Shown here one piece after another: positions 15,017-31,479 of a stretch of DNA of 32,508 nucleotides. The position numbers and the translations under genes were made by a program. The stretch's first letter is position 1. Each line of letters begins with the position of its first letter. The stretch is from a virus, in IMG/VR virus record IMGVR_UViG_3300008952_000177, positions 1-32,508 of that record. One strand, given 5' to 3'. The notes beneath the pieces were generated by a model that saw nothing but the letters and a program-made list of their open reading frames with translations, searched no databases and had not been told where the DNA came from.

Positions 15017-15469
15017 ATGAATAATAAAACTTTGACTGAAATCCAAGAAATGTGGAAGAAAGATTGTCAAATTGATGACATAGAATTAGACGCTTCTTCT
15101 CTCAATGTTCCCATACTTCACGCAAAATATAGTGAGTTATTATCTGCTAAAAAACTCATTCAAATCAAATACGAACACGCATTAAAAGATTTACAAAAAG
15201 ACAAATGGCTTTGGTATACAGGTAAGTTAAGTCAAGAAGAAATACAAGAAAAGAATTGGGATTATGACCCATTCAATGGTCTTACAATACTAAAATCTGA
15301 TTACGATAAATTCTTTGGAGCTGACAGAGATATACAAACAGCATTAGAAAAATTAGAAATCTGTAAAGTTACAGTTAATTATTTACAAGATATAGTCTCT
15401 CAACTAACTTGGAGACATCAAACAATTAAGAATATTATAGAATGGCGACGATTCATGGCAGGCTCGTAA
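15017..15469 (+). CDS. uvsY: Recombination mediator UvsY
   Basis: This 150-residue helical protein matches UvsY (T4, 137): an N-terminal LTEIQEMWKKDCQIDD, a central IKYEHALKDLQKDKWLWYTGKL, KSDYDKFFGADRDIQ and the C-terminal helix IKNIIEWRRFMAGS that parallels IKHIQDMRAFEAGK of T4. UvsY loads the UvsX recombinase onto single-stranded DNA coated by gp32. The gene has no Shine-Dalgarno and its ATG coincides with the predicted transcription start. Its last 28 bases overlap uvsW. Confidence 0.92.
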   Translation: MNNKTLTEIQEMWKKDCQIDDIELDASSLNVPILHAKYSELLSAKKLIQIKYEHALKDLQKDKWLWYTGKLSQEEIQEKNWDYDPFNGLTILKSDYDKFFGADRDIQTALEKLEICKVTVNYLQDIVSQLTWRHQTIKNIIEWRRFMAGS

Positions 15470-19651: not shown

Positions 19652-19867
19652 ATGCATTCAAACAAAAACGGTATAGTTTATAATGGGTCTTATATGAATG
19701 AAGGACATGAAGTTACATTTATTATATTAACAGATAATAGAGCTAAAATAATTGAATGTTTCCGTTCAGGAGCTTCAGCATCTACAAACGAAAAGTACCA
19801 AAGTTTAGATCAAGCTATAGAATATCAGGATAAATTAATAAAACTCGGATATGATAAAGTTTCATAA
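19652..19867 (+). CDS. 71-residue protein between gp47 and gp46
   Basis: I cannot name this protein. It is mixed alpha/beta: GIVYNGSYMNEGHEVTFIIL, NRAKIIECFRSG, then a helix SLDQAIEYQDKLIKLGY. The ATG at 19652 is used here. A GTG at 19637, overlapping the previous stop as GTGA and adding five residues (MRKRL), is an equally good start because such overlaps are frequent in this genome. The last 17 bases overlap gp46. The position inside the gp47-gp46 unit suggests a recombination-linked role, without direct proof. Confidence 0.65.
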   Translation: MHSNKNGIVYNGSYMNEGHEVTFIILTDNRAKIIECFRSGASASTNEKYQSLDQAIEYQDKLIKLGYDKVS

Positions 19868-21560
19868 GGTAAGATATAAAAATTTTCTATCTACCGGTGA
19901 CTCTTTTACAGAAATAGACCTAAATAGAAAACCCACAACTCTTGTTATAGGAGCTAATGGTTCTGGTAAATCAACTGTGCTTGATGCATTGACATTTAGT
20001 TTGTTTGGAAAAGCTTTTAGAAAAGTCAATAAGATGGCTTTGATAAATTCTATTAATAAGAGAGGAGCTGTAGTAGAAGTTGAATTTTCTATTGGTAGAA
20101 AACAATATAAAGTCATGCGTGCTATCAAACCTAATAAGTTTGAAATATATCTTAATGGTAGTTTGATCCATCAAGATTCTAATGTAAGAGATTATCAAGC
20201 TCTTTTAGAACAACAAATACTTAAACTCAATTACAAGTCATTTACACAAGTTGTAGTGTTAGGTAGTTCTTCATTTACTCCATTTATGCAGTTGAATACG
20301 ATTGAGAGAAGAGGTATTATTGAAGATATACTTGATATACAAATCTTTTCGGTAATGAATGAAGTTCTTAAACGAAGGTATACATCTTTACGACATGAAT
20401 TGAATGAAATAAAAATGAATCTTAGAATTGGTGAAGGAAAGATCAAAAGTCAAGAAGAAACAATGAAACGATTAGAAGAAAATCGTGATGAACAGATAGT
20501 AAAGTTAAAATCTAATATTCAGAAATCTGATGAACAAGAATCAATTTATATGGGTAGTATTGATGTTTTTAGTAGAATGTTAGAAAAACAGAACAATCTT
20601 AAAGAAGATGAAGATGATGTTAGAAAAAAATTACAGTCTGTTTTACTGGAAGAAAAGAAATTTGAATCAGATAGAAGAAAGCTATTGAAGGAAGAAAAGT
20701 TTTATGAAGCTAATGATGAATGTCCTACTTGTAAACAAGATATAGAAGAAGGACACAAATCACATATCTGCGAAGAAATTGATAAAACTGTTGGAGAACT
20801 TAACAATAAGTTAGAAGAAAGAAGCCAATCTATTGTACAAATCAATACAAGATTAGAAGAAATCTGGGATATAAATCAAGAAATAACTAGAATACAATCA
20901 GATATTCAGAAAGAACAAAGTCATATTACTGCAGGTCAGAAGTATAGATCAAAGTTAGAAAAGGAATTAAAAGATTTAGAAACTCAAGAACATACAGAAA
21001 AGGATATTAATAAATTAGAGAAGTATAGAAAAGCATATAAACAATTAGAAGGTATGCAAGAGAAATTAGTTGATAATAGACATTATTACGATTTAGCAGA
21101 GATACTTTTGAGAGATAGTGGAATAAAAACAAAAATAATTAGACAATATTTACCAATCATGAATAAGCTTATTAATAAATACTTAGCGAGTATGGAATTT
21201 TTTGTTCAGTTCGAACTTGATGAAGAATTTAATGAACAAATTAAATCTAGATATAGAGATACATTTACTTATTCATCTTTTAGTGAAGGTGAGAAAATGA
21301 GAATTGATTTGGCATTACTCTTTACATGGAGAGCAATTGCTAAGTTGAAGAATTCAGTAAATACAAATCTTTTAATATTAGATGAAGTGTTTGATAGCTC
21401 TCTTGATGAGGGTGGAACTGATGAGTTTTTAAAAATTCTAAATACTCTAGGAAATGATACTAACACCTTTATCATTAGTCATAAAGGCGATAGTATGAAC
21501 GAGAAATTTAACAACGTAATTGAATTCGAAAAGGCACAAAACTTCTCAAGAGTGGTGTGA
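19851..21560 (+). CDS. 46: Recombination nuclease ATPase subunit gp46 (Rad50/SbcC-like)
   Basis: The 569-residue protein has the full Rad50 layout: Walker A GANGSGKST (34-42), a coiled coil, a zinc hook CPTC (Cys291, Cys294), a returning coiled coil, the ABC signature FSEGEKMRI (about 477-485) and Walker B LLILDEVFD (about 506-514), with a D-loop SLDEGG. It works with gp47 in end resection. The length is close to T4 gp46 (560). The TGA overlaps a GTG start of a small frame (GTGA). Confidence 0.97.
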   Translation: MIKFHKVRYKNFLSTGDSFTEIDLNRKPTTLVIGANGSGKSTVLDALTFSLFGKAFRKVNKMALINSINKRGAVVEVEFSIGRKQYKVMRAIKPNKFEIYLNGSLIHQDSNVRDYQALLEQQILKLNYKSFTQVVVLGSSSFTPFMQLNTIERRGIIEDILDIQIFSVMNEVLKRRYTSLRHELNEIKMNLRIGEGKIKSQEETMKRLEENRDEQIVKLKSNIQKSDEQESIYMGSIDVFSRMLEKQNNLKEDEDDVRKKLQSVLLEEKKFESDRRKLLKEEKFYEANDECPTCKQDIEEGHKSHICEEIDKTVGELNNKLEERSQSIVQINTRLEEIWDINQEITRIQSDIQKEQSHITAGQKYRSKLEKELKDLETQEHTEKDINKLEKYRKAYKQLEGMQEKLVDNRHYYDLAEILLRDSGIKTKIIRQYLPIMNKLINKYLASMEFFVQFELDEEFNEQIKSRYRDTFTYSSFSEGEKMRIDLALLFTWRAIAKLKNSVNTNLLILDEVFDSSLDEGGTDEFLKILNTLGNDTNTFIISHKGDSMNEKFNNVIEFEKAQNFSRVV

Positions 21561-21703: not shown

Positions 21704-21727
21704 TAAATTATGAGTTTTAGATTATGA
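21699..21727 (+). promoter_or_regulatory. Possible promoter and five-codon cistron coupled to def
   Basis: TATAAT (21699-21704) is followed by five bases and an ATG (21710) that opens a five-codon frame (Met-Ser-Phe-Arg-Leu). Its TGA (21725-21727) overlaps the def ATG at 21724. The -35 is poor (TTGTTT at 21677-21682, 16-base spacer), so the promoter is uncertain. The layout repeats that at 25851-25916. Confidence 0.4.
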
Positions 21728-22266
21728 TTATAAAAAATGAAAAGCAGTTACGAGAAAAAGTAACAGCAACTTGGTCATTTGATTCCCCAGCATTGGATAC
21801 AAAAGAGTTTGCGAAAGAACTCGTGGATTCTATGTGGAAAAATTCTGGTCTTGGCATATCAGCTAATCAAATAGGTTACCCATATAGAGTATTCGCTATG
21901 AGAGGTGAAACTAAAAAAGAAAGTATGGTATGTTTCAATCCCAAGATAAAAGACTTTTCTCCTGAAATGAATACAATGGAAGAAGGTTGTTTATCATTAC
22001 CAGATGTCTATGGTAAAGTTGTAAGACCAGCTCATGTTGCTATTTCATATCAGAATGAAGATGGTAAAGAAGAAGGACAATTAGCAAGTGGTTTAACCGC
22101 AAGAGTTTTTCAACATGAATTAGATCATTTAGATGGAATTCTATTTACAGATAGAATGGGTGAATTAACAAGAACTAGAGCTCTGCTACAAGCAGATAAA
22201 ATAAGGAAAGCAAGAAGTCGTGGAAAAGATTGGTATGTTCAGAAAAAAACTAAAGTCGCTTTATAA
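21724..22266 (+). CDS. def: Peptide deformylase
   Basis: The 180-residue protein carries all three deformylase motifs: GLGISANQIG (42-51), EGCLSLPD with the metal ligand Cys89, and QHELDHLDG with His131, Glu132 and His135. It removes the formyl group from nascent proteins. In marine phages deformylase is thought to act on phage or host photosynthetic or other short-lived proteins, but the target here is unknown. The motif set is intact, so it should be active. The start overlaps a five-codon cistron (ATGA), and no Shine-Dalgarno is visible. The C-terminal basic helix (ADKIRKARSRGKDWYVQ) is longer than in minimal viral forms. Confidence 0.95.
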   Translation: MIIKNEKQLREKVTATWSFDSPALDTKEFAKELVDSMWKNSGLGISANQIGYPYRVFAMRGETKKESMVCFNPKIKDFSPEMNTMEEGCLSLPDVYGKVVRPAHVAISYQNEDGKEEGQLASGLTARVFQHELDHLDGILFTDRMGELTRTRALLQADKIRKARSRGKDWYVQKKTKVAL

Positions 22267-22357
22267 TAAAGATAAAGACTTTATTGCATTTCTATTAGTT
22301 TTTATTATAATGATTTTAGCTGTTGCAGCGGGAGCTACAGTCGGGAAATTAATTTGA
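22235..22357 (+). CDS. 40-residue membrane microprotein overlapping def
   Basis: This frame starts within the end of def in another frame, has a basic N-terminus (FRKKLKSLYNKDKD) and one strong membrane helix (FIAFLLVFIIMILAVAAGA), and ends in a TGA overlapping the TTG start of the oxygenase gene (TTGA). The 31-base overlap with def and the exact join to the next gene suggest it is real and bridges the two. Function unknown. Confidence 0.55.
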   Translation: MFRKKLKSLYNKDKDFIAFLLVFIIMILAVAAGATVGKLI

Positions 22358-22965
22358 AATTACATTATGAATTGAAACGTGATAATGATGAGCGTTTATC
22401 ATCTTGTATAAGATCATATCCTGATATTGTCCCTAAAGCTTATTGTGCAAAATTAATAGAATTTTTTGAAGAAAGTATAACTTTCAAAATTGATGATAGC
22501 AGAAAACAGTCTAGAGAAATGCAACTCATTGGTGATCCAAGGCCTCAAGCTATAGCTTATAAAGATTTATTACTTGATTTAATATATCCATTAGGTGAAA
22601 GGTATGAAAGAGAATTACATGCTATTTGTCGTACAGATTATATGCCAACAGATGAACCTATGACAATAATGTATCCAACAAGCTTTCGCTCTTTACAGAT
22701 ACAAAAATATGCACCAGAAGATAAAGGATATCCTGCAGTTCATATAGAAGCAGGTCCAAACCATGTAAAAAAATATCTTGCATTAATAATATATCTAAAT
22801 GATATAGAAGATGGAGGTGAAACTGTTTTTCCAATGGGTGGTACTGCGATTGAACCTGAAGCAGGTAAAGTGTCAATCTGGCCAACAGGTTTACCTTTTT
22901 ATCATTGTGGAAATAAGGCTAAAATAGATAAGTACATTATTACTTCATGGTTTGAATTTCAATAA
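22354..22965 (+). CDS. 2-oxoglutarate/Fe(II) oxygenase, prolyl-4-hydroxylase-like
   Basis: The only usable start is a TTG at 22354, which overlaps the previous TGA; no in-frame ATG lies upstream before a stop. The 203-residue protein has the C-terminal catalytic core of P4H-like enzymes: IQKYAPEDKGYPAVHIE with His130, YLALIIYLNDIEDGGETVFP, His184 in FYHCGN, and Lys193 in KYIITSWF, which would bind 2-oxoglutarate. The usual H-x-D iron motif is H-x-E here (His130, Glu132). Such enzymes hydroxylate proline in proteins; the target in a phage is unknown. The promoter cassette for the next gene begins within its stop codon. Confidence 0.85.
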   Translation: MKLHYELKRDNDERLSSCIRSYPDIVPKAYCAKLIEFFEESITFKIDDSRKQSREMQLIGDPRPQAIAYKDLLLDLIYPLGERYERELHAICRTDYMPTDEPMTIMYPTSFRSLQIQKYAPEDKGYPAVHIEAGPNHVKKYLALIIYLNDIEDGGETVFPMGGTAIEPEAGKVSIWPTGLPFYHCGNKAKIDKYIITSWFEFQ

Positions 22966-23012
22966 AAACTTGAAACCGCCGGTACACTTTTGTTATACTA
23001 TATACATAATGA
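22961..23012 (+). repeat. Promoter cassette, copy 1 (49/52 identical to 25842-25893)
   Basis: Fifty-two bases starting in the stop region of the oxygenase gene recur at 25842-25893 with three differences (22963, 22980, 22998). The cassette holds TTGAAA (22970-22975), an 18-base spacer, the extended -10 TGTTATACT (core 22994-22999) and an ATG (23009) nine bases later. Confidence 0.92.
22970..22999 (+). promoter_or_regulatory. Sigma70-like promoter of the 168-residue gene
   Basis: TTGAAA, an 18-base spacer and TGTTATACT stand nine bases before ATG 23009. The leader would be at most about two or three bases. The -10 differs from copy 2 by C for A, so this copy may be weaker. Confidence 0.75.
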
Positions 23013-23515
23013 CAAAAGATTCGAAAATTATCAAGAAATTAACCAAAAAAGTCGGAGGTTCGTTGCCTCTCCCTCTTGGAAGTGGAACAAAAAGATCAGT
23101 AACCCTGATTGATGCAGACAAAGTTGGTTTGATAACAGTTCTAGACTGGACACCTGCGAGATGGTCACTCGGTCTAGGATTGAATTTCCCAGTTTTAGAT
23201 TTAGTAGGACTAGCCGGGACCTTGAAAAAGACTATCCCAGCCCCTACTATACCATACGCAGATTGTTTTGATGTTATGAAGATAACAGCCAAAAGAGTTA
23301 TCAACAACAAAGACAGTAGGTTTCATGGAATGATTCTTCCATACGGAAAAGTCGATCCTGATCCAGTGGGTGGATGGTTACAGTATGGATTGCCAAACTT
23401 GAAGAAGTATTTTAAAAATAAACCCAAAGATTGTAAATGGGACATAGATTGGAAACCAAGTGGTCACAATCTAACTGGTAAGAAAAAAAGAATGAAACAT
23501 TTGAGAGTATGTTAA
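23009..23515 (+). CDS. Unknown 168-residue protein, first gene of the protease-VWA unit
   Basis: ATG 23009 is chosen because it lies inside the promoter cassette; an upstream TTG/ATG frame would begin before the promoter. I do not recognise the protein. It begins basic (SKIIKKLTKKVGG), then has SLPLPLGSG and beta-rich parts (RSVTLIDADKVGLITVLDW, PARWSLGLGLNFPVLDLVG), PAPTIPYADCFDVMKI, and a basic, Trp-rich end (CKWDIDWKPSGHNLTGKKKR). Base composition is visibly richer in G+C than its neighbours, hinting at a different origin or strong protein constraint. Its last seven bases overlap the protease-VWA gene, so the two are coupled. Confidence 0.75.
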   Translation: MTKDSKIIKKLTKKVGGSLPLPLGSGTKRSVTLIDADKVGLITVLDWTPARWSLGLGLNFPVLDLVGLAGTLKKTIPAPTIPYADCFDVMKITAKRVINNKDSRFHGMILPYGKVDPDPVGGWLQYGLPNLKKYFKNKPKDCKWDIDWKPSGHNLTGKKKRMKHLRVC

Positions 23516-25842
23516 ATATAGGTAATTCAAATAAAGATGTTTTAGCAAAACTCATGGCTACAGAGAACATTACAGTTCTTCACAAAAAAGTTCCCACAGC
23601 ATATTTTGATGTCAAAAACAGGACATTAGTTTGTCCTATGTTGAAAGATGATATGTCAAGTGAGATGTATGATCTATTCATGGGTCATGAAGTGGGACAC
23701 GCATTAAATACTCCAATGGAAGGATGGCACGATTCAGTAAGTGAATTGGGTATGATCTTTAAAGGATATTTAAATGTAATAGAAGATGTTAGAATTGAGA
23801 AAGAAATTAAAGTCAAATATCCGGGACTAAGAAGGTCTTTTTATCAAGGATATAAAGAATTAAATGAAGATGATTTCTTTGGTCTTAGTGATAAAGACAT
23901 TAACGAATTAAATTTAATAGACAAAATAAACATTCATTACAAAGTCGGCTCTTTTGCAAGAGTCAATTTTACTGATGAAGAAAAGGTCTATCTTAAAAGA
24001 TGTGATAACTTAACAACTTTTGAAGAAGTTATGGCATTAGCTAAAGAACTTTTTGAAAAACAAAAAGAAGAATCAAAAGACAAAGTGGAGTCAATGACTC
24101 AAGATCAACTTAATGAGTTGATGGACGAATTGGGAATTGAACCAGAAGAAGGTGGAAATACAGAAATTCAAGTTTCTAGTGAAGAAGGAGAAGAAGAACA
24201 AAGAGAAGGCTCTTCTACTGCAGAAGGAGATAAATTTATTGAAGATTTAGCAAAGAAACTCAAAGGAGACAATGAAGAAGAAGAAAATGACGAAGCAGAT
24301 GAAGAATCTGATTCTGGCGATGGAGAGAATGAGAACAATGAACAGTCAAATAAAGGCGGTAAATCTCCAGAAGAACAATTAGAAGATGAATTAAATAAAT
24401 CTAAAACTGATGAAGAATTTAGAGCAAATGAAGGTGACTTACATGCTCAAGATTACAGAGCTAAAGAACCTACTTATTATGAATTAAAAAAGAAAATCAA
24501 ATACAATGACTTCTTAATTCCTTGGAAAGAGATTGATGAACTTATTGAAGATAGAGGTTTAGATAGAACCAACATTCATAAGTATACTAAAAACTTTATT
24601 GACAGTAATAAAAAAATTATTAGTTATATGGTTAAAGAATTTGAAATGAAGAAAGCTGCAGCTGATTACAAAAGAAGTAGATCAGCCAAAACAGGTGAAT
24701 TAGATATGAAAAAACTTCATCTTTATCAATTAAAAGATGATATTTTCAATAGAATACAAGTTGTTCCAGATGGAAAAAATCATGGTGTTGTAATGATCAT
24801 TGATTGGTCTGGATCCATGACTGGTTCAGTAAAATCAACAGTAGAACAAGCAGCATTACTTTCAATGTTTTGCAGAAGATTACAAATTCCTTTTAGACTT
24901 TATGCTTTTTCTGATGGGTACCATAAAAAACTTTCAGGTGATGCTTACGATACTTATGTAGAAAAAAGAGAAAAAGCTAAAACTAAAAAAGCGAAACGAG
25001 CAGCTAGAGAAGAATATGACAATAGGTTTATTAAGAGAACTTGGGGTGAAAATCCTTTTAATGAAGATGAACAACAATGGGATTTAGGAAATTTAAATCT
25101 TCTTGAAATATTTAATGAAAAAATGAGTAATTCAGACTTTGTAAGAAGTATGGAGAATTGGTTTGAACTAGGATTTCATAGTGACCATTATGATTATTAT
25201 TACAACACTTATACCGATAAATTTGATAAAGAATTCTTAGTACCAGGTGATTTATGTTTAGGTGGAACCCCATTAGATCATTCAATAATTTTAATGAGAG
25301 ATTACTTAAAAGATTTTCAAAGAGATTACGGATTAGACATTACTACTTTTATAGCATTGACTGATGGAGAAAGTCATGGTTGTATTGGACATTATGATTC
25401 AAGTTTAGTTGATAGAAAATATAACAAAGTTCATGAAATGAACGGTTATCGTGGGACAACAAGAGGTCTTTTAAAATGGTTAAAAGATACAACAGGTGTT
25501 AGAACAATAGGGTTCTATTTAACAAAACCTTCTGGTCAAAGATTTTTCCGTGAAGTTGAAAGATTTGCAGGAGTTGAATGTTACTCTTTTGATGATACTG
25601 CGATTGGATGGAGAAAAGAATTTAATAAATTAGCAGTAAGTATTGAACATAAAAAAGGTACTTACGATTTAGCAATACTCATTAATCAAAATAAAATTGA
25701 TATTGACTATAATGAAGATGAACTTCAAGTTGAAGTGGGAGCTAAAAAAGGAGCACTAAAGAGAGCTTTAGTGAAAGCAGGAAATAACAAAATGCAACAA
25801 AGAGTGATACTTAATAAGTTCGTTCAACAAATGGCGGTATGA
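23509..25842 (+). CDS. Zinc-metalloprotease/VWA protein, CobT-like
   Basis: The 777-residue protein joins three parts. Near the N-terminus is a zinc protease motif HEVGH (60-64) followed by YLNVIEDVRIEK (88-99), which supplies the Glu/Asp expected of gluzincin-like sites. About residues 195-310 are a Glu/Asp/Asn-rich linker. From about 425 is a von Willebrand A domain with MIDAS DWSGSM (Asp432, Ser434, Ser436), FIALTDGES and a further C-terminal part. The arrangement, including the x-E-x-V-R-x-E helix, is that of CobT-like proteins, which in bacteria pair with CobS and CobN in cobalt insertion. With the AAA+ gene downstream it forms a MoxR/VWA-type pair. Whether it chelates metal, cuts protein or remodels a complex is unresolved. 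Confidence 0.85.
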   Translation: MLNIGNSNKDVLAKLMATENITVLHKKVPTAYFDVKNRTLVCPMLKDDMSSEMYDLFMGHEVGHALNTPMEGWHDSVSELGMIFKGYLNVIEDVRIEKEIKVKYPGLRRSFYQGYKELNEDDFFGLSDKDINELNLIDKINIHYKVGSFARVNFTDEEKVYLKRCDNLTTFEEVMALAKELFEKQKEESKDKVESMTQDQLNELMDELGIEPEEGGNTEIQVSSEEGEEEQREGSSTAEGDKFIEDLAKKLKGDNEEEENDEADEESDSGDGENENNEQSNKGGKSPEEQLEDELNKSKTDEEFRANEGDLHAQDYRAKEPTYYELKKKIKYNDFLIPWKEIDELIEDRGLDRTNIHKYTKNFIDSNKKIISYMVKEFEMKKAAADYKRSRSAKTGELDMKKLHLYQLKDDIFNRIQVVPDGKNHGVVMIIDWSGSMTGSVKSTVEQAALLSMFCRRLQIPFRLYAFSDGYHKKLSGDAYDTYVEKREKAKTKKAKRAAREEYDNRFIKRTWGENPFNEDEQQWDLGNLNLLEIFNEKMSNSDFVRSMENWFELGFHSDHYDYYYNTYTDKFDKEFLVPGDLCLGGTPLDHSIILMRDYLKDFQRDYGLDITTFIALTDGESHGCIGHYDSSLVDRKYNKVHEMNGYRGTTRGLLKWLKDTTGVRTIGFYLTKPSGQRFFREVERFAGVECYSFDDTAIGWRKEFNKLAVSIEHKKGTYDLAILINQNKIDIDYNEDELQVEVGAKKGALKRALVKAGNNKMQQRVILNKFVQQMAV

Positions 25843-25893
25843 AGAAAAACTTGAAACCGCAGGTACACTTTTGTTATAATATATACATAATGA
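25842..25893 (+). repeat. Promoter cassette, copy 2
   Basis: This is the second copy of the 52-base cassette at 22961-23012 (49/52 identical). It starts at the last base of the protease-VWA stop codon and ends in the ATG of an eight-codon cistron. Three substitutions include a change to a perfect TATAAT. Confidence 0.92.
25851..25880 (+). promoter_or_regulatory. Sigma70-like promoter of the CobS-like gene
   Basis: TTGAAA (25851-25856), an 18-base spacer and TGTTATAAT (core 25875-25880) give a strong extended -10 promoter. ATG 25890 stands nine bases after the -10. Confidence 0.82.
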
Positions 25894-25916
25894 AAAAACG
25901 CGAGAAAAAAATATGA
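25890..25916 (+). CDS. Eight-codon cistron coupled to the CobS-like gene
   Basis: The ATG supplied by the promoter cassette opens Met-Lys-Lys-Arg-Glu-Lys-Lys-Ile and stops with a TGA that overlaps the next ATG (ATGA). Transcription should start two or three bases upstream. It may be a translation-priming cistron that lets ribosomes restart on the ATPase gene, which has no other ribosome site. The peptide itself may have no function. Confidence 0.5.
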   Translation: MKKREKKI

Positions 25917-27115
25917 TAAAAATAACGGCACAACACGAAAAATTCATAGACGCTGCATCAGGATTATATCCTGGACAGGCTGAATTTTCAAAATCACAAA
26001 TAAAAAAGATTTGTTCAGAAACAGGATGTCCAAATCCTTCATGGTTACAAAAACCAGCTTATAGAGTAGGACATGGTACTTACTCATTAGAACTAGCGGG
26101 AGTCGCTGTTCAAAATAATGTAGTAGAATTGCCAGTTGGACCAACATCAGCAGGAGCAGTAAATGTTCTAATGAATGATATAACAGTTATTCCAGAAGCA
26201 GTTAAAGAATATGTTCCATTCGGACATTTCAAAGATTTAAAATCAATCTTGAGATCAGGATTGTTCTTCCCAGTTTTTATAACAGGTCTATCAGGAAATG
26301 GTAAAACCATGATGGTAGAACAAGTCTGTGCAAAACTCAAAAAAGAGTGTTACAGAGTCAATGTTACTATTGAAACTGATGAAGATGATTTAATAGGATC
26401 CAACACTTTAATTGATGGTAACATACAGTTTAGAGAAGGTCCAGTTCTCAAAGCAATGAGAAAGGGAGCAGTTCTTTTAATTGATGAAATTGATTTAGCA
26501 TCAAATAAAATTATGTGTCTTCAATCAATTCTTGAAGGAAAAGGATACTTAAATAAAAAAACAGGTGAGTATGTATCACCAACACCAGGATTTACAATAG
26601 TCGCAACAGCGAATACTAAAGGAAAGGGTTCAGATGATGGAAGATTCATCGGAACTAATGTATTGAATGAAGCTTTCTTAGAAAGGTTCTCAATTACAAT
26701 GGAGCAAGAGTATCCATCAAACGCAATTGAGAAAAAAATTCTTATCAAAGAATTTGAAAGATTAGAAGTTACTGATCAAGTTGAATTTGTAGTCAACTTA
26801 GTAAATTGGGCTGATGTAATCAGAAAATCTTTTTACGAAGGAGCAATTGATGAATTAATCTCAACTAGAAGGTTGGTCCACATTGCACAAGCATTCACAA
26901 TGTTCAAAGACAAAATGAAAGCGATTGAAATGTGTGTATCAAGGTTTGATACTGAAACAAAAGCAACTTTCCTAGACCTCTACACTAAAGTAGATGCAGA
27001 AGCAGTTGAAGTTCCAGAAGATGATATTCCAACTCCAACTGATGCAGATGAATTTCTGGGTGATGTAGAAATTAAAGATTTTACTGATCCCTCAACTGAG
27101 GAAGAAACATTTTAG
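25913..27115 (+). CDS. cobS: CobS/MoxR-like AAA+ ATPase
   Basis: The 400-residue protein has an N-terminal region with IKKICSETGCPNPSWL and VGHGTYSLEL (about 1-60, possibly for substrate recognition), then an AAA+ core with Walker A GLSGNGKT (125-132), DLIGSNTLIDG, Walker B LLIDEIDLA (188-196), a sensor segment TIVATANTKG, and ALSRRLV-like ISTRRLVHIAQAF. It ends with an acidic tail. It is like the cobS of marine T4-like phages. Bacterial CobS with CobT drives cobalt insertion into the corrin ring; here the partner is the zinc-protease/VWA protein, so a different remodelling job is possible. A strong terminator follows. Confidence 0.88.
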   Translation: MIKITAQHEKFIDAASGLYPGQAEFSKSQIKKICSETGCPNPSWLQKPAYRVGHGTYSLELAGVAVQNNVVELPVGPTSAGAVNVLMNDITVIPEAVKEYVPFGHFKDLKSILRSGLFFPVFITGLSGNGKTMMVEQVCAKLKKECYRVNVTIETDEDDLIGSNTLIDGNIQFREGPVLKAMRKGAVLLIDEIDLASNKIMCLQSILEGKGYLNKKTGEYVSPTPGFTIVATANTKGKGSDDGRFIGTNVLNEAFLERFSITMEQEYPSNAIEKKILIKEFERLEVTDQVEFVVNLVNWADVIRKSFYEGAIDELISTRRLVHIAQAFTMFKDKMKAIEMCVSRFDTETKATFLDLYTKVDAEAVEVPEDDIPTPTDADEFLGDVEIKDFTDPSTEEETF

Positions 27116-27128
27116 AGAATACCTCGCG

Positions 27129-27175
27129 TTTCCCTCTCTTGGGTCTATTCTTGACAAAAGAGAGGGAAATTTTTT
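27129..27175 (+). terminator. Rho-independent terminator after the CobS-like gene
   Basis: TTTCCCTCTCTT (27129-27140) and AAGAGAGGGAAA (27158-27169) form a perfect 12-pair stem with a 17-base loop, followed by six T's. The Shine-Dalgarno AAGGAG of the next gene comes directly after the T-run. It closes the promoter-cassette unit. Confidence 0.88.
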
Positions 27176-28830: not shown

Positions 28831-28906
28831 GGGGCTGTAGCTCAGTTGGGAGAGCGATTGGTTTGCATCCAGTAGGTCGGAGGTTCGAGCCCTCTCAGCT
28901 CCACCA
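28831..28906 (+). tRNA. tRNA-Ala (anticodon TGC)
   Basis: All stems fold: acceptor GGGGCTG/CAGCTCC with the G3-U70 pair that marks alanine tRNAs, D arm GCTC/GAGC, anticodon stem ATTGG/CCAGT (one G-U) with loop TTTGCAT and anticodon TGC at 28864-28866, T arm GGAGG/CCTCT with TTCGAGC. CCA is encoded (28904-28906). It reads GCA and other GCN codons. It may support codon use late in infection. It is 76 bases long and looks functional. Confidence 0.97.
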
Positions 28907-28922: not shown

Positions 28923-29342
28923 ATGAAAGTTGAAATTAAATATAAAGATGCATTAGGTACTTCTAAAGGTCTGTTTGCAACAGAAGATATGCATAAAGGT
29001 AATTTAATACTTATGTTAAAAGGTAATCATTTTTCGGAACCTACTAGAACATCAATACGAGTTCGAGATAAAAATATTGAACATTATGAGGGAGCCTTTT
29101 TAAATCATCATTGTAATCCTAATGCAGAGATTTGGGAAATTACTGATGTTGAAGAAGGCCTTGTAGTTGCGAAATGTGATATCTCTAAAGGAGAAGAAAT
29201 TACTTTTGATTATGAAACAACAGAACCAATATTAGCTGCTCCGTTTAAGTGTGATTGTCATGGTAAATGGATCAGAGGAAAAGATTATGAATCTAGTTTA
29301 ATGATGGATTATAGCGGAGCTTTTGAAAGTGATGTCAAATAA
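28923..29342 (+). CDS. SET-domain protein (putative lysine methyltransferase)
   Basis: The 139-residue protein shows SET motifs in order: GTSKGLFATEDMHKGNLI (12-29), FLNHHCNPNAE (59-69; canonical form is N-H-S-C-x-P-N), GEEITFDYE (90-98) and a post-SET-like CDCHG (110-114). These make the S-adenosylmethionine pocket, the pseudoknot and the catalytic Tyr (Tyr97). SET enzymes methylate protein lysines, mainly in eukaryotes, with scattered bacterial and viral cases. The protein is compact, close to viral minimal SETs. The target is unknown. Its end overlaps the next gene by 11 bases. Confidence 0.88.
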   Translation: MKVEIKYKDALGTSKGLFATEDMHKGNLILMLKGNHFSEPTRTSIRVRDKNIEHYEGAFLNHHCNPNAEIWEITDVEEGLVVAKCDISKGEEITFDYETTEPILAAPFKCDCHGKWIRGKDYESSLMMDYSGAFESDVK

Positions 29343-29580: not shown

Positions 29581-29874
29581 ATGAGTTTGAATTATAAGTT
29601 TAGTGAAGGTGATCTTCTAAAAGAATTAAAGTCGTATATTGATAATACATATACTCAACACTACAACAAAAACAAATTTCAAGCAACAGAATTTATCGTA
29701 GATTCTGGACATGGGATGGGATTTTCTCTAGGGAACATTCTAAAATATGCACAGAGGTACGGGAAAAAAAATGGTCATGATAAAAACGATTTATTAAAAG
29801 TTTTACATTATGGCATAATTGCACTTCACGTGCACAATTTAAATAATGAGGAAAGTGAAACCAATGAATATTAG
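29581..29874 (+). CDS. DUF3310-like protein
   Basis: The 97-residue protein has a polar first half and GFSLGNILKYAQRYGKKNGH, then DLLKVLHYGIIALHVHN. The pattern F-x-x-G-N-x-x-K-Y-x-x-R-x-x-K...D-L-x-K is the hallmark of DUF3310 (SaV-like) phage proteins, whose role is not settled (a nucleotide-related role is often assumed). It stands directly before the clamp gene with an 11-base overlap, which fits a replication-linked job. It begins at the predicted transcription start. Confidence 0.7.
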   Translation: MSLNYKFSEGDLLKELKSYIDNTYTQHYNKNKFQATEFIVDSGHGMGFSLGNILKYAQRYGKKNGHDKNDLLKVLHYGIIALHVHNLNNEESETNEY

Positions 29875-30529
29875 TAATGAAACTCTTGATGTACTAAGAA
29901 ATTTTTCATCAATCAATTCAGGGTTGACTGTTAAGGAAGGAAACGAACTTAGAACAGTATCAGCCATGAAAAATATTTTTGCAAAAGCAATAGTTTCTGA
30001 AAATTTTGATAAAGAACATTCAATTTATGATTTATCAGAATATCTAGGAGCTGTATCTTTATTTGATACTCCAACTTTTGAGTTCAATGCAGAGAAAGTA
30101 ATCGTGTCGGAGGGCGATAATAGTGTAACATATTATTATGCTGATCCACAGATGGTTATATCTCCACAGAAAGATATTAACATGCCCGAACCAGAAATTA
30201 GTTTTGATATTGATGAAGGTGTTTTAGACTCATTACTCAAAGCTTCTTCTGTTTTATCATTACCGGACATGATGTTGTCTAGTGATGGAACTACAGTAAC
30301 ATTAACTGTTAAAGATAAAAAGAATTCAACTTCTAATGTTTTTAGCAAAACAGTAGCTCAAGGTAATGGTTCTACATACGAAATGTTTCTTAGAATGGAA
30401 AACATTAAACTAATTCCTGGAGATTATACAGTCTTTGTATCTTCTAAGGGTATAGCACATTTTACAAATAGGAAGCAAGCTATAGAATACTTCATCGCTT
30501 TAGAACCTGATTCTAACTACAATGAGTAG
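29864..30529 (+). CDS. 45: Sliding clamp gp45
   Basis: ATG 29864 is chosen because MNISNETLDVLRNFSSINSG aligns with the T4 start MKLSKDTTALLKNFATINSG; an ATG 18 bases upstream would add six residues. The 221-residue protein (T4 228) continues with SIYDLSEYLGAVSLF, DPQMVISPQKDINMP and ends FIALEPDSNYNE, like YVVALEADSTHDF. The trimeric clamp tethers the polymerase and, with gp55, activates late promoters. GAGG at 29848-29851 may serve as ribosome site. gp44 follows after five bases. Confidence 0.95.
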   Translation: MNISNETLDVLRNFSSINSGLTVKEGNELRTVSAMKNIFAKAIVSENFDKEHSIYDLSEYLGAVSLFDTPTFEFNAEKVIVSEGDNSVTYYYADPQMVISPQKDINMPEPEISFDIDEGVLDSLLKASSVLSLPDMMLSSDGTTVTLTVKDKKNSTSNVFSKTVAQGNGSTYEMFLRMENIKLIPGDYTVFVSSKGIAHFTNRKQAIEYFIALEPDSNYNE

Positions 30530-30534
30530 AAAGC

Positions 30535-31479
30535 ATGAAAGAAGAATTTTTATGGGTTGAGAAATACAGACCTAGAAATATCAGTAATTGTGTTCTGCCA
30601 ACAGAAACAAAAAAGATATTTATAGATTTTGTAAACAATAACGAAATACCAAACTTACTATTATGTGGCACTGCAGGTGTTGGTAAAACAACTGTTGCAA
30701 GAGCCTTATGTAATGAGTTGGGAGCCGATTGGATACTTATCAATGGTTCAGAAGAACGAAACATTGATACACTTAGAGTTAAGATAAAACAATTTGCTTC
30801 CACAGTATCATTGACAGTAGATGGTGGACCGAAAATTGTTATTTTAGATGAAGCGGATTATCTTAATCCCCAATCAACACAACCAGCACTTAGAGGATTT
30901 ATAGAAGAATTCTCAAAGAACTGCAGGTTTATTTTCACTTGTAATTACAAGAATAGAATTATACAACCATTACATTCCAGATGTAGTGTAGTTGATTTTA
31001 CAGTTGAAGCGAATCAAAAACCTCAGATCGCGAATCAAATTTTTCAGAGGATACTACAAATACTTACTGATGAAAATGTTGAATATAATGATAAAGTAGT
31101 TGTAGAAGTAGTTAATAAATTCTTTCCTGATTTTCGTAGAATGCTCAACGAAATTCAAAAGTACTCAGCTTCGGGAAAGATTGATAGTGGTATCCTCGCC
31201 AATTTAGATGATGAAAGTTTAAACGAATTGTTAAACTTTATCAAAGAAAAAGAATTTTCTAAAATGAGAAAATGGGTTGCAATGAATATTCATAATGATC
31301 CACAATCAATTTATAGAAAAATATATGATAGCTTTTTTACAAAATTTGAGAACAATAGTGTTCCACAAGCTATTATTATTTTAAGTGATTATACATATAA
31401 GTCTGCGTTTGTTGCAGATCAAGAAGTAAACATGGTAGCATGTTTAACCGAGTTAATGATGGAGTGTAAAATTAAATGA
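30535..31479 (+). CDS. 44: Clamp loader ATPase subunit gp44
   Basis: The 314-residue protein (T4 319) is an AAA+ loader: WVEKYRPRNISNCVLP (7-22), Walker A GTAGVGKTT (45-53), Walker B VILDEAD (102-108), a sensor near FTCNYKN (134-140) and the arginine finger SRC (148-150). It loads gp45 with gp62. The next frame, overlapping by ATGA, is not gp62 but a QueD-like protein, so the small loader subunit must be elsewhere or absent. Confidence 0.97.
   Translation: MKEEFLWVEKYRPRNISNCVLPTETKKIFIDFVNNNEIPNLLLCGTAGVGKTTVARALCNELGADWILINGSEERNIDTLRVKIKQFASTVSLTVDGGPKIVILDEADYLNPQSTQPALRGFIEEFSKNCRFIFTCNYKNRIIQPLHSRCSVVDFTVEANQKPQIANQIFQRILQILTDENVEYNDKVVVEVVNKFFPDFRRMLNEIQKYSASGKIDSGILANLDDESLNELLNFIKEKEFSKMRKWVAMNIHNDPQSIYRKIYDSFFTKFENNSVPQAIIILSDYTYKSAFVADQEVNMVACLTELMMECKIK

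Follow-up and report, generated by a model that had tools for sequence, protein, structure and literature searches.

Matched putative promoters before a peptidase/VWA gene and a MoxR-type ATPase gene of marine T4-like phages, and a portable structured element

In this work we analysed a stretch of viral DNA of 32,508 nucleotides (nt) (IMG/VR record IMGVR_UViG_3300008952_000177; hereafter the window, to whose + strand position numbers refer unless another record is named), in which a gene for a phage 'peptidase' with a VWA domain and a gene for a MoxR-type AAA+ ATPase labelled 'CobS' each belong to a unit that begins with a copy of the same predicted promoter cassette. The two genes are already known as a pair that belongs to the core of marine T4-like phages and lies between gp46 and gp45. 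Comparison of upstream sequences indicates that the matching of their promoters is a recurrent property across lineages with differing promoter sequences, and this is new relative to the published CobST pair. The reading that we favour, to which we give as a whole a probability of about 0.72, is that of an AAA+/VWA machine under matched promoters, with a hot spot for cargo that holds in the window a portable structured element, element A.

Promoters of the pair

The two cassette copies form a direct repeat of 57 nt with 93% identity (49/52 over the 52 bases delimited in the initial annotation). They alone match the core pattern (up to three mismatches) across the window, 100 dinucleotide shuffles give no match, and both score as sigma-70-type promoters, with TTGAAA, an 18-nt spacer, TATAMT and a TG ahead of the -10. 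Identity, promoter form and shuffle controls all confirm the duplication as it had been reported. The accompanying statement that both copies begin at a stop codon and end in an ATG holds in part: an ATG ends both and a stop codon lies at both starts, but copy 1 starts 2 nt ahead of the stop codon of the upstream gene (TAA, 22963-22965) while copy 2 starts on the final base of one (TGA, 25840-25842), and the second ATG, instead of starting the ATPase, opens an 8-codon frame whose stop overlaps the true start at 25913. The three open reading frames (ORFs) of the unit, and the 12-pair terminator said to close it, were found as described, the stem comprising 12 Watson-Crick pairs and one G-U pair (-25 kcal/mol, z = -5.8) before a T run.

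The evidence that carries the finding comes from 65 divergent T4-like loci with other promoter sequences, in which, after a 90% redundancy filter, we scored the best 30-nt match between the regions upstream of the peptidase and ATPase genes. This match is 21.5 within a genome versus 18.0 between genomes, and none of 10,000 permutations was as high (P<1e-4); a strict match (25/30) is found in 14/65 cases within genomes versus 0.9% between genomes. None of the 20 other gene pairs used as controls shows a within-genome upstream match. Examples are L064 (TTGACAATGCCCCTCACTTTTTTGTATACT / TTGACAATGCCCCTCACTTTTTAGTATACT), L071, L049, L061, L056 and G044 (L-numbers designate loci and G-numbers larger records, such as G044 of 129.6 kb). 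The proposal that the two genes form a constant pair with matched promoters is thereby strengthened. In G044 the promoter of that lineage occurs five times (up to three mismatches), before the peptidase gene, the ATPase gene, element A and two small genes, members of families (c3 and c11) whose representatives in the other clade follow the window-type promoter. Since the gene families are the same, although the promoter sequence differs, all five units overlap the window-type regulon. These comparisons suggest a conserved regulon whose promoters change together between lineages; a new sigma preference, or recombination between copies, may be the cause.

For the clade of the window, related contigs were obtained from two IMG/VR pattern scans and sites were then scored with a weight matrix. 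The scores are sharply bimodal, real sites lying above 24 bits, and mostly above 30, while shuffles reach at most about 15. About 170 sites in 96 loci precede about 25 gene clusters, many of them small ORFs; by family, 37 sites precede 5'-nucleotidase-like genes, 27 peptidase genes and 18 ATPase genes. The initial annotation had held that the idea of a dedicated system would fail if the cassette stood before many unrelated genes. With about 25 gene families behind it, the exclusivity of the cassette is lost, and what it marks is a regulon rather than a dedicated system. Among homologues of the genes of the window, it precedes the peptidase gene in 22/23 loci and the ATPase gene in 16/16, and it was found before none of the other conserved block genes (including gp46 in 15 loci, deformylase in 21 and 2-oxoglutarate (2OG) oxygenase in 21); the sole peptidase exception is the window itself, because of its insert between promoter and gene. 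All 12 clade contigs that have both sites keep both promoters. The window-type motif is absent from HTVC008M, S-PM2 and P-SSM2 (up to two mismatches) and from the distant peptidase loci L044-L121; by sequence, it is specific to the clade of the window. Its most frequent partner, in 37 loci (L005, L017, L027, L126 and 33 others), is a 5'(3')-nucleotidase-like HAD protein of about 166 amino acids, so named from a look at its sequence. Small-ORF families starting with MSH(F/L/P) recur behind regulon promoters in different lineages (L015, L171, L031, L183, L331).

Element A and the insert before the peptidase gene

In the window, copy 1 leads into a frame of 168 codons that overlaps the peptidase start. 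It is known solely from the window and the near-identical contig L035, searches with its product against Pfam, PHROG, NCBIfam and phage records gave no match, and its codon usage falls under the 5th percentile of window gene pieces; a single-sequence AlphaFold2 model, which is weak evidence, is disordered (predicted local distance difference test score, pLDDT, of 30). The first ~61 codons (5' 180 nt) make up element A, homologues of which stand behind promoters elsewhere, and the remaining 108 codons form an ORFan tail. The only other copy of a hairpin in this tail, element B, stands separately in L182, where it reads AGCAGG...CCUGCU and follows element A. In the close relatives L022, L024 and L025 the promoter leads straight into the peptidase gene, while elsewhere the insert is a small ORF (L012, L042) or a small ORF with a second promoter (L015, L019, L171); tandem promoters precede the peptidase gene in L004, L006, L014 and others. 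The point directly before the peptidase gene is a hot spot for promoter-linked cargo, where the insert varies or is absent.

Covariance models match element A in 16 contigs, with 12 distinct members, at E values of 1e-25 to 1e-45. Over the 12 sequences 94% of cells are paired, versus 27-44% in slid controls, and 20 of the 41 pairs are changed on both sides, with 60 double-change cells versus 23 in shuffles (0/500). The structure was derived from three of the 12 sequences and the alignment was fitted to it; domain 2, rechecked on an ungapped alignment of nine sequences, gave the same result (7/12 pairs). The peptide shows no conservation, since changes are even over codon positions (61/61/60) and the synonymous/nonsynonymous ratio is near neutral (339/848 versus 311/876 expected). 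No in-frame stop occurs in any of the 12 members, versus 7.8 stop-making changes expected (P 3e-4), and element A is likely, on these sequences, to be translated. A purely coding element was rejected for lack of a third-position excess and a purely non-coding one because the frame is open more than expected. A group I intron, hinted at by the helix order, was also discarded, as neither the window nor L155 gives an Rfam group I match at E<10. No Rfam family fits element A, and searches of isolate phages returned short chance matches only.

The members differ in their promoters (at least four types) and in the genes downstream (at least six). In G042 (the contig of L250; 8127-12939) the peptidase and ATPase genes flank element A; in G044 it is 30 kb distant from the pair. 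Rickettsia palindromic elements are structured and maintain an open reading frame although their peptide is not conserved. Element A shares structure, open frame and lack of a conserved peptide with them, but it stands at a 5' end behind a promoter, in about one copy per contig, and not inside many genes. If the interpretation is right, it would represent a new family of RNAs misread by gene callers as orphan proteins.

Function of the pair and rival explanations

In the peptidase, H60, E61, H64, E92, D93 and the core residues of the metal ion-dependent adhesion site (MIDAS) are invariant across 49 relatives, and the label 'peptidase' is for this reason not clearly wrong. With a conserved catalytic Glu in its HExxH motif in 49 sequences, the protein is a candidate HExxH metallopeptidase; no Pfam peptidase model matches its 777 residues, the invariance of E92-D93 being a sequence-level observation, and a PDB profile search gave low-complexity or chance matches only. 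The MIDAS is complete (DxSxS-T-D), with DWSGS, T587 and D619 conserved. In an AlphaFold2 model (mean pLDDT 78) a disordered acidic linker (residues 215-283) joins the N-terminal domain to a VWA region, and in a Foldseek search with this model VWA folds, including NorD chains, rank best, although weakly (best E 1.3e-3). The ATPase matches AAA_5 (E 4e-19), AAA_3 and CbbQ_C of Pfam above cut-off, and its relatives in the PDB are midasin, CobS, NorQ and CbbQ. A CbbQ/NorQ-type AAA+ ATPase beside a VWA protein with a complete MIDAS is what is expected of a MoxR AAA+/VWA pair, to which the two proteins would belong. In S-SCSM1 (MK867354.2, 64426-66537) the same peptidase carries the annotation 'midasin', and among solved structures midasin is the best match of the ATPase too.

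In the NorQ/NorD chaperone, a finger of the VWA domain that enters the pore of the ring, together with a remodelled linker, is the means by which NorQ drives NorD (PMC9976466, PMC13036017). The phage pair resembles this system in its CbbQ/NorQ-type AAA+ protein, in a partner made of an N-terminal domain, a disordered linker and a C-terminal VWA domain with MIDAS, and in the VWA fold match; it differs from it in that the partner has an HExxH motif in its N-terminal domain and there is no nitric oxide reductase. From the NorD-like layout, and because the VWA domain of NorD is among the best folds, we infer that a mechanism of the NorQ/NorD kind may operate in the phage pair. The MoxR-type ring would partner the VWA protein with its N-terminal metal-site domain, the VWA domain would dock, ATP hydrolysis would twist or pull the VWA partner, and the metal domain would remodel or cleave a target. 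The sigma-70-like promoter of each gene, served by the host polymerase, would switch the pair on together, probably early, with a small group of other units. As cargo before the peptidase gene the window would hold element A joined to an ORFan tail, a combination that the initial annotation took for a third protein, and recombination of the cassettes with each other would be their means of spread.

Several observations weigh against this reading. The motif itself served to retrieve most clade contigs, L042, which was retrieved via the peptidase and has both copies, being the sole independent one; the strict promoter match is found in just 14/65 divergent loci, with kinship handled only by the redundancy filter. 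The fold matches to NorD are weak, and the probable early timing derives from the promoter consensus and from neighbours with the same promoter. Composition may in part explain why the frame of element A is open, one reverse frame being open in 9/12 members, which leaves the evidence for translation only moderate.

The same two families, in the same gp46-gp45 place, have been described as the viral cobST cluster (PMC8651126) and correspond to T4-GC 146 ('peptidase') and T4-GC 150 (cobS) of cyanophages, and the pair could be a viral cobaltochelatase helper that would use the CobN of its host to insert cobalt and increase the supply of cobalamin. CobS is indeed among the closest solved structures of the ATPase, and 3/8 relatives of the peptidase match the CobT model TIGR01651 weakly (best E 8e-4); CobS/CobT had been named at the outset as the nearest known pair. 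Neither protein reaches the curated cut-offs: the ATPase scores 90.9 bits with the CobS model TIGR01650 (cut-off 558.55) and the peptidase/VWA protein of the window has no match to TIGR01651 (cut-off 759.05 bits). A pure chelatase role would also leave the strict HExxH and ED motifs unexplained, no other cobalamin genes are seen in the window, whose contig is a fragment, and a promoter shared with small ORFs suggests a takeover role, all of which makes the helper unlikely. A single recent duplication in the lineage of the window, devoid of regulatory meaning, would agree with the near-identity of the copies and with the finding that in the clade within-genome similarity exceeds that between genomes for the sequence just after the core (P 0.0006), though not for the core itself, but matching recurs in divergent phages with different promoter sequences and is kept in every clade contig with both sites, and we consider this explanation very improbable.

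Promoter-stem-loop (PeSL) cassettes of T4-type phages were reportedly described by Arbiol in 2010 and Comeau in 2014 (see also PMC4503421). They have a repeated early-type promoter linked to shuffled small genes. The cassette of the window, likewise a strong, repeated sigma-70-like promoter with small genes behind it, could be mainly such a recombination module, with matched expression as a by-product, as the variable inserts and tandem copies before the peptidase gene, the many small ORFs behind the same promoter and the within-genome likeness beside the core would allow. This alternative is possible though rather doubtful: no terminator-like stem-loop was found beside either promoter in the window, and two copies are fixed before a core gene pair, at positions that stay stable while the inserts change. 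The view that the machine has a true third protein, encoded by the 168-codon frame, is hardly tenable. The frame is open throughout, its element A part is stop-free in 12/12 members, and it shares the promoter and overlaps the peptidase gene, but every relative of the pair examined other than L035 has nothing or unrelated small ORFs in its place, its 5' part is a portable structured element that occurs elsewhere away from the pair, and its codon usage, predicted disorder and lack of amino-acid constraint speak against a protein function.

Hundreds of marine phage genomes have the peptidase/'CobS' pair as a core component, usually classed as a cobalamin auxiliary gene. Relative to viral cobST, the window adds matched promoters that recur with different sequences and a strict HExxH. 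Promoter matching across lineages is independent evidence that the pair acts together, alongside takeover-type small genes, and makes it a candidate remodelling machine worth testing as such; concerted promoter change across the regulon would offer a tractable case of regulon evolution. More tentatively, at somewhat less than even odds, marine T4-like phages may share a small, conserved takeover regulon (the VWA-metalloprotease, the MoxR ATPase, element A and a few small proteins) with promoters that switch in concert, in which element A would represent a new class of mobile structured RNA, translated but neutral as to its peptide.

Genomic neighbourhood and other features

The pair is not new, as its genes are neighbours in annotated phages, cobS belongs to the cyanophage core (PMC3037559) and both have been published as viral CobST. 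Peptidase and cobS genes are adjacent, upstream of gp45-gp44, in HTVC008M, S-PM2 and Syn1, and three small genes separate them in P-SSM2. By tblastn, relatives of the peptidase are found in 463 phage records and those of the ATPase in 795, the two being equally represented among Synechococcus (365 records), other cyanophages (61) and Prochlorococcus (24). A bacterial origin of the pair was rejected, as matches in bacterial assemblies with enough flank mostly show the phage block gp46-peptidase-CobS-gp45, that is, phage contigs. The features of the window are listed in Table 1.

Table 1. Features of the window and their coordinates
Feature	Position	Strand	Remarks
gp46 homologue, upstream anchor of conserved block	19851..21560	+	matches annotated gp46 of S-PM2, Syn1 and P-SSM2, there upstream of peptidase
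Promoter cassette copy 1 (predicted)	22961..23017	+	-35 TTGAAA 22970-22975; -10 TATACT 22994-22999; conserved spacer CCGCNGGTACACTTTTG; ATG 23009
Frame of '168-residue unknown protein'	23009..23515	+	element A + ORFan tail
Element A, portable structured, apparently translated leader	23009..23189	+	covariance model
Element A domain 1	23028..23135	+	closing helices UUAUCA/UGAUAA, AACCAA/UUGGUU, GUC/GAC; multi-way junction, three hairpins
Element A domain 2	23136..23182	+	12-bp hairpin CAGUUCUAGACU...GGUCUAGGAUUG; extensive compensatory change
Element B hairpin (AGUAGG...CCUACU)	23202..23249	+	within ORFan tail; z-score -1.85, weak
Phage 'peptidase', 777 residues	23509..25842	+	phrog_459, E 5e-173
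HExxH (HEVGH) metal-site motif	23686-23700	+	N-terminal domain
MIDAS DWSGS	24802-24816	+	C-terminal VWA domain; with T587 and D619
Promoter cassette copy 2 (predicted)	25842..25898	+	-35 25851-25856; -10 TATAAT 25875-25880; ATG 25890
Short leader frame MKKREKKI	25890..25916	+	overlaps ATPase start
MoxR-type AAA+ ATPase ('CobS')	25913..27115	+	phrog_249 (annotated 'porphyrin biosynthesis', CobS), E 2e-115
Intrinsic terminator closing the unit	27128..27175	+	13-bp stem 27128-27170, then T5-6
gp45 sliding clamp + gp44 clamp loader, downstream anchors	29846..31479	+	

Positions 21724-22965, which lie between gp46 and the pair, encode a peptide deformylase and a 2OG-Fe(II) oxygenase, the former found again near the same place in several relatives and in phage contigs of bacterial assemblies. 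A T4 late-promoter-like sequence, TATAAATA, precedes, on the + strand, genes in the left part of the window (3149, 5152, 7819, 11107, 14015, 14375, 18083), the pattern having 11 matches in total versus 5.9 expected, so that some occur by chance. A second promoter type, TTGACW-16-TGNKATAAT, has three sites in the window (14982, 17517, 29547), two of which, 14982 and 29547, share TTTTCTGTTATAAT and precede the gene at 15017 and a small gene at 29581 ahead of gp45. A SET-domain protein (28923-29342; Pfam E 2e-12) adjoins a tRNA-Ala gene (28831-28906).
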